Below are positions 9,243 to 44,351 of a stretch of 44,828 nucleotides of DNA, in pieces. Numbering within the stretch: the first letter of the stretch is position 1; each line of letters opens with the position of its first letter. Location of the stretch: contig JAFGHJ010000016.1 of NCBI GenBank assembly GCA_016930175.1, forward strand, positions 1 to 44,828, written 5' to 3'. Source of the DNA: Caldifarciminota bacterium (GTDB taxonomy: Bacteria > Hydrothermota > UBA3072). The notes beneath the pieces are model-generated. The model worked only from the letters and a program-made list of their open reading frames with translations. It had not been told where the DNA came from and did no database searches. The position numbers and the translations under genes are program-made.

Positions 9243-9277
9243 GCTCTTAGCTTCTTGCGTTTAGCTAATGGCTTAAA
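9243..9277 (+). repeat. 35-bp five-heptad word array (GCTNTTA family)
   Basis: Five consecutive 7-nt units all begin GC (first GCTCTTA, last GCTTAAA). Same architecture as 11711-11745, 37228-37262 and, inverted, 44248-44282. It is the first element in the 311-bp macro/rex gap. Confidence 0.75.
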
Positions 9278-10140: not shown

Positions 10141-10214
10141 CACAAAGACGCAAAGACCACAAAGTTTCTTATTTCTTTTGACTACTTACTACTCCCTACT
10201 ATTTACTCACTGAT
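10141..10214 (+). repeat. Octad then heptad words between rex and a converging gene
   Basis: 10141-10164 holds three CACAAAGA-like units of 8-9 nt. 10180-10207 holds four 7-nt units, three ending TACT and the last TTACT, with a fifth partial unit running into the stop region of the converging gene. These words account for most of the 72-bp gap. Confidence 0.65.
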
Positions 10215-11710: not shown

Positions 11711-11745
11711 GCTCTTAGCCTTTAGCTTTTGGATATTAGCTTAAA
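11711..11745 (+). repeat. 35-bp five-heptad word array (GCTNTTA family)
   Basis: Five 7-nt units, first GCTCTTA, then GCCTTTA, GCTTTTG, GATATTA and a final GCTTAAA. First and last units are identical to those at 9243-9277. Confidence 0.8.
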
Positions 11746-11755
11746 AAGGAAAAAA

Positions 11756-11798
11756 CTTTGTGTTCTTTGTGTCTTTGTGTGAGATTTTCTTTGTGCGG
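11756..11798 (+). repeat. Octad words (CTTTGTGT)
   Basis: CTTTGTGT occurs three times with 9- and 8-nt spacing and once more as CTTTGTGC after an 8-nt interval. It follows the heptad array by 10 A-rich bases, the same order as at 37228-37286. Confidence 0.75.
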
Positions 11799-14759: not shown

Positions 14760-14780
14760 ACCACAGAGAACACAGAGAAA
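14760..14780 (+). repeat. Octad-type words (CACAGAGA) upstream of glyQ
   Basis: CCACAGAGAA and CACAGAGAAA lie side by side, the complement of the CTCTGTG words found at 32009 and 37276. The word ends 23 nt upstream of the glyQ -35 box. Confidence 0.6.
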
Positions 14781-37227: not shown

Positions 37228-37262
37228 GCTGTTTGCCTTTAGCCTTTGGCTATTAGCTTAAA
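37228..37262 (+). repeat. 35-bp five-heptad word array (GCTNTTA family)
   Basis: Five 7-nt units: GCTGTTT, GCCTTTA, GCCTTTG, GCTATTA and final GCTTAAA. The second and last units equal those at 11711-11745. Confidence 0.8.
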
Positions 37263-37266
37263 AAAA

Positions 37267-37402
37267 CTTTGTGATCTCTGTGTGAGTAAAAAAATGGCTG
37301 ACGACTCTCGGCTCACAGCTCCCGGCTGACGGCTAAAAAACTTCGTGTCTTAGTGCCTTAGTGGCATAAAAAATCTTGTGTTAATCTGTGGAATCTCGTG
37401 GT
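37267..37402 (+). repeat. Chain of octad, heptad and decad words
   Basis: CTTTGTGA plus CTCTGTGT then GAG (37267-37286) are followed by six 7-nt units from GCTGACG to GCTAAAA (37297-37338). Three 8-nt units come next, CTTCGTGT, CTTAGTGC and CTTAGTGG (37341-37364), then three AATCT-starting units of 9-11 nt (37372-37402). All lie in the 388-bp DUF1593/proS gap. Confidence 0.75.
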
Positions 37403-41553: not shown

Positions 41554-43380
41554 ATGTGTGGTATTGTGGGATATATAGGAGATAAAGACATCAATTCCGT
41601 TTTGATGGCAGGGCTCTGGAGATTAGAATACAGAGGATATGATTCTTCAGGGGTGGCTTCGGTAATGGACGGCGAGCTGGAAGTACGTAAAGTAAAAGGA
41701 AGATTGATGAATCTCCAGGAAATGCTCTCTGAGAAACCCCTTTCAGGAAATATCGGAATAGGACATACACGCTGGGCAACCCACGGAGAACCCTCTGACC
41801 AGAACGCTCATCCTCAAGTCGGATGCAAAAACAAAATAGCAGTTGTACATAACGGGATAATTGAGAACTATTACACGCTCAAAGAAGAACTCTTGAAGAA
41901 AAAACACTTTTTTAAATCTAATACCGATACGGAAGTAATTGCCCATTTAATCGAAGAAAATTACAAAGGCAATTTAAAGGAAAGTGTACTTAAAACGATA
42001 TCCCGGCTTGTAGGATCATACGCTATTGCTGTTATTTGCACTGACGAACCGGATAAAATAGTAATATTTAGATACGGAAGTCCTTTAATCGTTGGAATAG
42101 GAAAGAATGAAAATCTAATTGCTTCCGATATTCCCGCGCTTCTCGACCACACCAAGGATATTATCGCGATGAATGACGGAGAATTAGGTATAATCAAAAA
42201 AGACAAAGTTGAATTCTTTAACGCGGAAGGCGAAAAAATTAAAAAGGAAAAGAAAAAGGTAAAATGGGGACCTGAAAGCATCGAAAAAGAAGACTTCCCG
42301 CACTATATGTTAAAAGAAATTCATGAACAGCCAAATATTATAAGAAATAATATTAGTCTTAAGATTAAAGGAAACGAATTTAATTTCGGAGAAGATTTTA
42401 AGTTTTCGCCTAAAGAACTTGCGCACCTATCTCACATAATAATACAGGCCTGCGGAACTTCATGGCACGCAGGATACATAGGCAAATATCTTTTTGAAGA
42501 TTTCGCCCGAATACGTACCGAAATTGACATCTCCTCGGAATTCAGATACAGAAATCCGGTAATGGACGGCGAACCTCTTGTAATGGCTATAACTCAATCA
42601 GGAGAAACAGCCGATACCCTTGCGGGCCTCCGGGAAGCAAAAGCCAAATTTATAAAAATTCTATCTCTTGTTAACGTAAAGGGAAGTACCATCGCAAGAG
42701 AATCGGACAGCACCATTTACTTAAATGCCGGTCCGGAAATCGGAGTGGCGTCAACAAAAGCTTTTACCTCTCAAATCTTCCAATTATACCTTCTTTCTTT
42801 ATATCTATCAAAACTTAAATGGACCCTCGATAGTTCTGAAATAGACAAAAAAATAAAAGAAATAAAAGAACTACCAAAAAAGATGAAAAAAATACTTAAA
42901 AAGGAAAATGAAATCAAAGAGATTGCCAATAAATTCAAGAATGCAAAGGATTTTATGCTCATAGGAAGAGGAATTAATTACCCGACCGCACTTGAAGGAG
43001 CTTTAAAACTAAAAGAGATTTCCTATATCCACGCAACCGGTTACCCTGCGGGAGAGATGAAACACGGTCCCATTGCTATGATTTCGGAAGGGAGCCCGGT
43101 TGTTGCAATAGCTACAAAATCTTCAGTTTACGATAAAATGCTAAGTAACATAGAAGAATTGAAATCAAGGAAAGCAAAAGTTATAGTTATAGGAACCGAG
43201 AATGACGAAATAATCAAAAATTTAGGAAGCGACGTATTCTATATACCCGAATGCGAAGAAAACCTATCCCCTATCCTCGTAAGCATACCTTTACAATTAT
43301 TTGCTTACCATATAGCAGTTTTAAACGAAAGAGATGTTGATCGTCCGAGAAATCTGGCAAAATCCGTTACAGTAGAATGA
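41554..43380 (+). CDS. glmS: Glucosamine-6-phosphate synthase
   Basis: GlmS makes glucosamine-6-P from fructose-6-P and glutamine. The 608 residues begin with the N-terminal nucleophile Cys2 (MCGIVGYIG), followed by the class II glutaminase domain (about 2-220, RLEYRGYDSSG, GHTRWATHG). Two SIS sugar-isomerase domains follow (about 285-425 with CGTSWHAGYIGKY and TQSGETADTL; about 455-590 with GRGINYPTALEGALKLKE). The canonical end is DRPRNLAKSVTVE. The ATG directly follows the glmM stop with a G-rich RBS. No glmS ribozyme-like leader is possible, since there is no gap. Together with GlmM it gives the two-step route to GlcN-1-P. Confidence 0.98.
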   Translation: MCGIVGYIGDKDINSVLMAGLWRLEYRGYDSSGVASVMDGELEVRKVKGRLMNLQEMLSEKPLSGNIGIGHTRWATHGEPSDQNAHPQVGCKNKIAVVHNGIIENYYTLKEELLKKKHFFKSNTDTEVIAHLIEENYKGNLKESVLKTISRLVGSYAIAVICTDEPDKIVIFRYGSPLIVGIGKNENLIASDIPALLDHTKDIIAMNDGELGIIKKDKVEFFNAEGEKIKKEKKKVKWGPESIEKEDFPHYMLKEIHEQPNIIRNNISLKIKGNEFNFGEDFKFSPKELAHLSHIIIQACGTSWHAGYIGKYLFEDFARIRTEIDISSEFRYRNPVMDGEPLVMAITQSGETADTLAGLREAKAKFIKILSLVNVKGSTIARESDSTIYLNAGPEIGVASTKAFTSQIFQLYLLSLYLSKLKWTLDSSEIDKKIKEIKELPKKMKKILKKENEIKEIANKFKNAKDFMLIGRGINYPTALEGALKLKEISYIHATGYPAGEMKHGPIAMISEGSPVVAIATKSSVYDKMLSNIEELKSRKAKVIVIGTENDEIIKNLGSDVFYIPECEENLSPILVSIPLQLFAYHIAVLNERDVDRPRNLAKSVTVE

Positions 43381-44201
43381 ATATATTTTTACTGCTATCT
43401 TTTACCTATTTAACCATGCCCTATAACGGCAAGATATTCTCTTCGGGAACAGCATTCTCCGCAAATAAAGAAGCACCCGAAAACCTCTTCTGGAATCCAG
43501 CCGGAATGGGAAAGAATGCTTCTATAGCTTCGGCTTTCAACTATGCGGGATTAATTTTTGGGTCCCTTGGAAAAACCTGGGAAAAGAATAATCTTAACTT
43601 AGGCATTGGAATTCAACTGTTACGAAGCGAGACCATGAATAAAACAAACATGATGGGTGAGCAGATAGGTACATTTAATTATCAATCTGCTGTTCCTCTG
43701 ATAGCAGGAAACATAGAGATAAGTAAATTCCTAATAGGCGCAAAAGCTTTCTTTCCTTATACAACCGTAGATGAATATCAAAGTTACGGATTGGGTATTG
43801 ACATTGGCGGAATATACTCTCTAAATGAATTATTGTTTTTTTCTGTTTACATAAGAAATTACGGAAAACAAATTACGGCTTTCTTGAGAGAAAAAGAGAA
43901 TTTTCCGGTAGAATCAAGGCTCGGAGGACTCCTAAAATCCGATAAAACAATATTTTCCCTGGAATATAGCACACTTCTGGGTACATGTTCTTCTATCTCA
44001 TATAATTTCAACAAAATAATTGGTTTTACTGCAGGTTACAACGGTAAAATAGGCAAATTTAACGGTATAGAAAGTTCTAATTTAGCAGGTTTATCCTTCG
44101 GAGTAAGCATAAAACATCGTAAAATATACCTATCTCTCGGTACTATAATGTGTGGTCCCGAAGGTTTTAGCGAAACAATTTCAATTTCTTTTATACCTTA
44201 A
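43377..44201 (+). CDS. PorQ-like outer membrane protein
   Basis: The 274-residue product has a weak N-terminal hydrophobic segment (1-14). A segment ENLFWNPAGMGKNASIA carries the NPAG motif of the PorV/PorQ (UPF0164-like) family. Alternating hydrophobic strands such as LIAGNIEISKFLIGAKAFF and FSVYIRNYG fit a beta-barrel, and it ends SETISISFIP. It is shorter than the PorV-like protein in the receptor operon and distantly similar at best. The start overlaps the glmS stop as ATGA, so it is coupled to glmS, an odd partner for an outer membrane protein. Role unknown. Confidence 0.7.
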   Translation: MNIFLLLSFTYLTMPYNGKIFSSGTAFSANKEAPENLFWNPAGMGKNASIASAFNYAGLIFGSLGKTWEKNNLNLGIGIQLLRSETMNKTNMMGEQIGTFNYQSAVPLIAGNIEISKFLIGAKAFFPYTTVDEYQSYGLGIDIGGIYSLNELLFFSVYIRNYGKQITAFLREKENFPVESRLGGLLKSDKTIFSLEYSTLLGTCSSISYNFNKIIGFTAGYNGKIGKFNGIESSNLAGLSFGVSIKHRKIYLSLGTIMCGPEGFSETISISFIP

Positions 44202-44247: not shown

Positions 44248-44282
44248 TTTTAGCCAACAGCTAAAAGCCAACGGCTAAGCGC
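44248..44282 (-). repeat. 35-bp five-heptad word array (GCTNTTA family), inverted
   Basis: On the minus strand five 7-nt units run from GCGCTTA through GCCGTTG, GCTTTTA and GCTGTTG to GCTAAAA. It lies directly before the inverted repeat that precedes the rRNA promoter. Confidence 0.75.
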
Positions 44283-44351
44283 TAATTTCATAAATTTTTT
44301 TAAATCAAGGATTTACATAAATAAATAAAATTAAAAAAATTTATGAAATTA
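44283..44351. repeat. 21-bp perfect inverted repeat upstream of 16S rRNA
   Basis: Arms 44283-44303 and 44331-44351 are perfectly complementary, very AT-rich, with a 27-nt loop. The right arm ends 12 nt before the rRNA -35 box, where an UP element would lie. It may also end transcription from the glmS operon. Confidence 0.85.

Follow-up and report, generated by a model that had tools for sequence, protein, structure and literature searches.

Dispersed intergenic arrays of degenerate heptads with a fixed format in a Caldifarciminota bacterium and other genomes of its phylum

Heptad arrays in the window

The window (the whole stretch of 44,828 nucleotides that was analysed, contig JAFGHJ010000016.1 of assembly GCA_016930175.1) belongs to the 2.34 Mb, 48-contig genome of a Caldifarciminota bacterium (G000). 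The gap upstream of proS holds a 35-nucleotide array of five 7-nucleotide units (the seed array), and three further intergenic sites of the window carry arrays of the same kind, one of them inverted. These four sites had been described from the letters alone, and all four read exactly as claimed. What that first description overlooked is another array 35 bp 3' of the seed, the CTTTGTG-type (GTG-word) arrays that follow some copies and the inverted pairs found elsewhere in the genome. The features are listed below.

9243 to 9277, plus strand: heptad array GCTCTTA GCTTCTT GCGTTTA GCTAATG, terminal unit GCTTAAA (profile E 3.5e-6)
11711 to 11745, plus strand: heptad array GCTCTTA GCCTTTA GCTTTTG GATATTA, terminal unit GCTTAAA (profile E 3.1e-8)
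11756 to 11783, plus strand: GTG-word array CTTTGTGTTCTTTGTGTCTTTGTGTGAG, 3' of the 11711 array
37228 to 37262, plus strand: seed heptad array GCTGTTT GCCTTTA GCCTTTG GCTATTA, terminal unit GCTTAAA (profile E 2e-8)
37267 to 37286, plus strand: GTG-word array CTTTGTGATCTCTGTGTGAG, 3' of the seed array past an A-run
37297 to 37338, plus strand: second heptad array in a GC-richer dialect, GCTGACG ACTCTCG GCTCACA GCTCCCG GCTGACG, terminal unit GCTAAAA, repeating the seed layout directly after it
37341 to 37364, plus strand: GTG-word array CTTCGTGTCTTAGTGCCTTAGTGG, 3' of the second heptad array
44248 to 44282, minus strand: heptad array GCGCTTA GCCGTTG GCTTTTA GCTGTTG, terminal unit GCTAAAA (profile E 1.2e-7)

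The seed gap consists of two composites in a row (heptads, GCTTAAA, A-run and GTG-words, then GC-richer heptads, GCTAAAA and GTG-words), and the promoter-like TTGACA stretch before proS is located downstream of both. Between 37341 and 37500 this gap runs on as degenerate word arrays (CTTAGTG, AATCTGTGG and CTTTGCG words), and arrays of degenerate words occupy much of the intergenic DNA seen across the phylum. The 9243 array is flanked by a macro-domain-like gene (minus strand) on one side and a Rex-like repressor gene (plus strand) on the other, while the 44248 array lies in the gap between the 3' end of the gene at 43377-44201 and the 16S rRNA gene. Starting exactly at the end of the latter array, a perfect 21-nt inverted repeat (44283-44303 and 44331-44351, with a 27-nt loop) lies just upstream of the 16S promoter region; it is absent from the sister genome G001. 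GTG-word arrays also occur in the window with no adjoining heptad array, at 10149-10164 (CTTTGTGGTCTTTGCG) and 14762-14777 (CTCTGTGTTCTCTGTG), both on the minus strand.

Enrichment over chance

The window contains four four-unit arrays of the GCYNTT type, compared with a mean of 0.006 and a maximum of one in 500 shuffles of its intergenic DNA that preserved dinucleotides; when the whole window was shuffled in the same manner the mean was 0.017. Across the genome, a 23-nt three-unit pattern gave 108 matches and its reversed control none. On these two comparisons a chance origin was rejected, and the first of them, named in the sequence-only reading as a check that could refute it, came out in its favour. 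A sequence-only 35-nt profile built from 20 copies detected 67 places at E<=1, and 60 remained at E<0.05. The copies are almost all intergenic; the element consists of tandem 7-nt units that are dispersed between genes, as in the STRR type of repeat.

The period is specific. In about 0.22 Mb of fetched stretches, strict runs of the GC dinucleotide at period 7 numbered 25 with three units, 12 with four, 46 with five, one with six and one with seven, while all the other periods inspected (5, 6 and 8-11) together yielded a single GC run of five. Because the motif itself served to fetch these stretches, bias affects the low counts for runs shorter than five but not the lack of longer ones. Genome-wide, none of the 42 matches to five consecutive GCY units was offset by 7 nt from another on the same strand, and the genome therefore has no strict six-unit GCY run.

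Fixed unit number and free words

The usual form comprises four GCYNTTN words and a terminal unit of the GCWWAAA type, followed by an A-rich spacer. Among 48 curated arrays, 34 are solo and 14 stand in inward-facing pairs. Exactly four NTT units precede the AA-rich terminal unit in 29 of the 34 solo copies, and a GTG-word array is located 3' of 17 of these 34, always on the same strand (opposite strand, 0). Most of the 14 paired arrays have five NTT units, and none of them is accompanied by GTG-words. The initial description of exactly five units holds in that runs of five far outnumber those of six and seven, but the format is more precisely expressed as four variable units plus the AA-rich terminal one.

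Along the unit, the composition is G 97%, C 93%, T or C 73 and 24%, any base, T 98%, T 90% and then A, G, T or C; position 4 varies almost freely, spread over the four bases, and the anchors are about 90-98% constant. Compared with shuffled arrays, the real ones contain words that are more distinct from each other (176 vs 164+-4, p about 0.003). VNTRs and simple sequence repeats are built of near-identical units whose number varies between copies, and neither property was found; the fixed unit number together with the high diversity of words within arrays led to the rejection of a slippage-type tandem repeat. A wider version of this idea, in which slippage or template switching yields neutral tandem words that resemble each other by accident, draws on the abundance of other degenerate word arrays in the intergenic DNA of the phylum and on two genomes (G019 and G030) with long, more perfect heptad arrays of 10-16 units. 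It is nevertheless very improbable given the sharp cut at five units, an AA-rich terminal unit common to unrelated dialects, and adjacent words that are more different than chance and not more alike.

Gene context and RNA-level explanations

According to a home-made gene caller, the gaps that hold arrays comprise 20 tandem, 11 divergent and 10 convergent ones, with no preference for gene orientation. An Rfam search of the window returned no family at the array sites and recovered only the 16S gene and a tRNA. Folding of the arrays was close to that of shuffled sequences (z about -0.6 and -1.0). In inverted pairs the two arms displayed no covariation, and pairing between them was not superior to pairing with arms taken from different loci. 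The random gene orientation and the absence of RNA covariation disfavour a promoter, terminator or structured-RNA role, and the two negative comparisons, of arm pairing with cross-locus arms and of folding with shuffles, led to the rejection of a hairpin or RNA role; the hint of small RNAs in the sequence-only reading did not stand. An element acting at the RNA level, be it a small RNA, a leader or a terminator, is hardly tenable: to the findings just given is added the position of the seed copy upstream of the promoter-like TTGACA before proS, against which can be set several copies in a genome of the same class (G008) that directly precede a Shine-Dalgarno-like stretch of the opposite strand.

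Gain, loss and dialects among relatives

The comparison within the genus relies on one genome (G001, about 71-72% DNA identity), with one genome per species. The profile search of G001 gave no match. The gap before the 16S gene, which is syntenic, has no array in G001 and measures about 110 bp vs 246 bp in G000; a second syntenic gap, on contig C29, likewise has none and spans 38 bp vs 172 bp between aligned blocks, the array present in G000 being GCTGACA GCTGACA GCCGACA GCTGACG GCGAAAA. Several arrays are located at synteny breaks relative to G001, but in the regions checked this was not enriched beyond gap length, since nearly all the long gaps checked sit at breaks.

In a genome of the same family (G004), at least eight copies carry GCTGATAGCTGTTCGCTGTAAGCTGTTGGCT or a close variant with an A-rich/ACAAAG stretch; near-identical 31-mers and neighbouring modules are common to the copies and the outer flanks are unrelated. 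The opposite strand of this repeat reads GCCAACA GCTTACA GCGAACA GCTATCA GCTAAGA, after which come GTG-words, and the order of these parts agrees with that in G000. The G008 genome also contains near-identical dispersed copies with shared neighbouring modules and unrelated outer flanks; its arrays (e.g., GCTAACC GCTATCC GCCTACC GCTGACC GCTAAAA) form several subfamilies that reuse words in different order. In G026, from another family of the phylum, four GCCNTGN units and GCAAAAA are usually followed by a word array of the AGTTAATAGTTTATAG type. The four-plus-one layout recurs, with different words (GCTNNCC, GCCNTGN, GCYNACA), in other genomes of the phylum, and five is the commonest run length also in G008 (18), G004 (12) and G026 (10).

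Among 147 genomes of the phylum, 17 contain the exact pattern of four units plus GCNAAAA, and bursts of it are seen in G000 (12 matches, 0 in the control), G008 (51 and 5) and G026 (9 and 0). Allowing two mismatches in G008 produced 92 matches vs a high control of 46, so that the exact pattern is the cleaner measure. In 50 genomes reached via their ProRS loci, mostly labelled as other phyla, the pattern gave two matches vs three in the control.

Other observations concern the variety of these arrays. G008 holds three heptad dialects at once (GCTNNCC, GCTNCCA and GCCGANR; L246-L274), all of which have four units closed by an AA-rich one, and the ribosome-site-like stretches next to several of its copies, on the opposite strand, are of the AACAAGGAGG kind. 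The long arrays of G030 and G019 (L142, L151, L232, L233) have more regular units (GCTGTTA, GCTTTAC) and lack the fixed-five format. Close to proS, one Desulfobacteraceae record and one Cloacimonadota record have near-perfect heptad arrays that use a different anchor (CCGTGAA, CCGTCTC; L069, L081).

The near-identical dispersed copies in G004 and G008 point to copying of the element, while the copies in G000 are too diverged to show recent movement. The earlier view that the element is maintained or copied and does not represent random AT-rich DNA is supported by the genome-wide enrichment, the fixed unit count, the constancy of the anchors and these near-identical copies in relatives.

Mobility and a possible transposase link

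REPs are palindromic hairpins, many per genome, that are linked to a rayt (Y1 transposase) gene. Like REPs and the inward-facing pairs known as REPINs (PMC3116915), the arrays described here are short and intergenic, stand singly or in inward-facing pairs and are numerous in the genome; unlike them, they have neither a hairpin core, given the weak folding and the lack of covariation between arms, nor a linked rayt gene. Around 20 Y1 genes of four genomes, a search for strict GC runs found no clear five-unit array next to any gene. A REP/RAYT origin was rejected for this reason, in spite of the presence of Y1 genes, and a Y1-transposase (REP-like) route is not supported. G000 itself has a single Y1 gene (IS200/REP-associated-like, 295 aa, C29:64510-64839, L311), and no GC-heptad array lies less than about 2 kb from it. 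No terminal inverted repeats or target duplications were seen in the aligned G004 copies or in two gaps compared with G001; the ends of the element are blurred because the neighbouring intergenic DNA itself consists of other word arrays.

It is possible, although on balance unlikely, that the copies are selfish or passive relics of the MITE or REP kind, with a transposase acting in trans on the heptads and no host function. The random orientation in gaps, the lineage-specific bursts, the near-identical copies in relatives and the paired inverted copies would all fit such an origin, as would the distribution of five-GCY matches, which are scarcely found outside genomes that have Y1 transposases (11 of 20 with them, one of 10 without), an association confounded by kinship and by general mobile-DNA load. 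The lack of adjoining arrays at the Y1 genes examined, of a REP-like hairpin core and of terminal repeats or target duplications argues in the opposite direction.

Comparison with other short-unit repeats

Cyanobacterial STRR sequences are dispersed intergenic heptanucleotide repeats, made mainly of identical copies of one word in variable copy number. The arrays share with them the tandem heptanucleotides and the dispersed, intergenic location, but here the words differ within an array and their number is fixed. The comparison with STRR made at the outset is fair as to kind, and a nearer precedent is found in Geobacter metallireducens, whose multicopy sites are the closest described kind (PMC2700814). 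They comprise five heptamers MTYCTGA in class 3, four octamers GTTGCTYN in class 1 and four heptamers GGACCGG in H4; classes 1-3 are mostly opposite-strand pairs at variable distance, and binding of global regulators was proposed for the sites of four octamers or five heptamers (PMC2700814). Like those sites, the arrays are dispersed, multicopy and composed of degenerate units of 7-8 nt in a small fixed number, four or five; they differ in consensus (GCYNTTN). As to pairing, the Geobacter sites are mostly paired (PMC2700814), and 14 of the 48 curated arrays stand in inward-facing pairs, the other 34 being solo. An AA-rich terminal unit, an A-rich spacer, a second word array and cross-genome dialects of one layout do not figure in the available portion of that description (PMC2700814).

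By analogy with Geobacter, the arrays could be chromosome-organising or global-regulator sites that are fixed in place and selected for host benefit. The fixed register and number, the degenerate interior and the inward-facing pairs are shared with the Geobacter sites (PMC2700814), but the sister species retains no copy and divergent gaps, which bear promoters, are not favoured over convergent ones (11 vs 10), making this explanation decidedly unlikely.

TAACTGA heptamer repeats of Beggiatoaceae, Cyanobacteria and Bacteroidetes repeat one exact word two to six times, with a maximum of 43, and most sets directly precede a start codon (PMC4679880). They resemble the present arrays in the many intergenic sets of direct heptamer repeats per genome and in their patchy distribution, and differ in that the words here are degenerate, fixed in number and free of start-codon bias (PMC4679880). 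A literature search with the words of the neighbouring arrays found nothing. What is new here is the fixed four-plus-one format kept across word dialects and its composite with a second word array.

A proposed copied repeat with a putative multi-site binding core

The copies are dispersed, of fixed format and free of gene-orientation bias, and their gain or loss is lineage-specific. With roughly even confidence, it can be proposed that the sites represent a copied, dispersed, short non-coding repeat, and that its heptad core is retained as an array of multiple binding sites. The core has four degenerate heptads (here GCYNTTN) in a block of constant size, with the AA-rich heptad GCTTAAA or GCTAAAA at its end. 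In the solo form the A-rich spacer comes next and then, often, GTG-words of 8-9 nt that make up a second array; in the other form two heptad blocks face each other. Intergenic spread of copies in either orientation, and their rapid gain or loss between species, are either evident or strongly indicated.

From the constant anchors and the free position 4 we infer that the core may be read in 7-bp steps, and such reading would explain why register and unit number are kept. By analogy, the most plausible reader is a putative DNA-binding protein that would load cooperatively on four adjacent 7-bp sites, in the manner of ribbon-helix-helix (RHH) proteins on unspaced repeats of that length; alternatively, the reader of the core could be the copying enzyme itself. 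The nearest physical precedent for a requirement of four heptads is parS of plasmid pSM19035, where the RHH protein Omega/ParB binds as one dimer per unspaced 7-bp repeat and at least four contiguous repeats are needed for full activity (PMC9499535). The arrays likewise offer four or more contiguous unspaced 7-bp units, whereas parS consists of 7-10 WATCACW units and is located on a plasmid beside par genes (PMC9499535), and the words are unrelated.

More tentatively, the arrays may belong to a hitherto undescribed class of fixed-format elements (four GC-anchored variable words and GCNAAAA, usually with a second array) whose words would change in concert inside a genome, the format staying constant throughout the phylum, read and perhaps spread by a putative protein that steps by 7 bp.

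Concluding remarks

The scattered copies, about sixty in this bacterium, point to a copied and maintained element that is neither junk nor a normal tandem repeat, whatever its function. Dispersed repeats of bacteria are normally recognised by their shared sequence; here unit length, unit number, terminal unit and following array are conserved across distant genomes and the words differ, so that the family would escape ordinary similarity searches. Should a reader protein exist, these arrays would represent a new way to mark bacterial chromosomes at dozens of sites; if there is none, the element still shows a copying process that keeps the number of words and not their identity. Either way, the 7-nt run-length statistics make the element testable in any genome.
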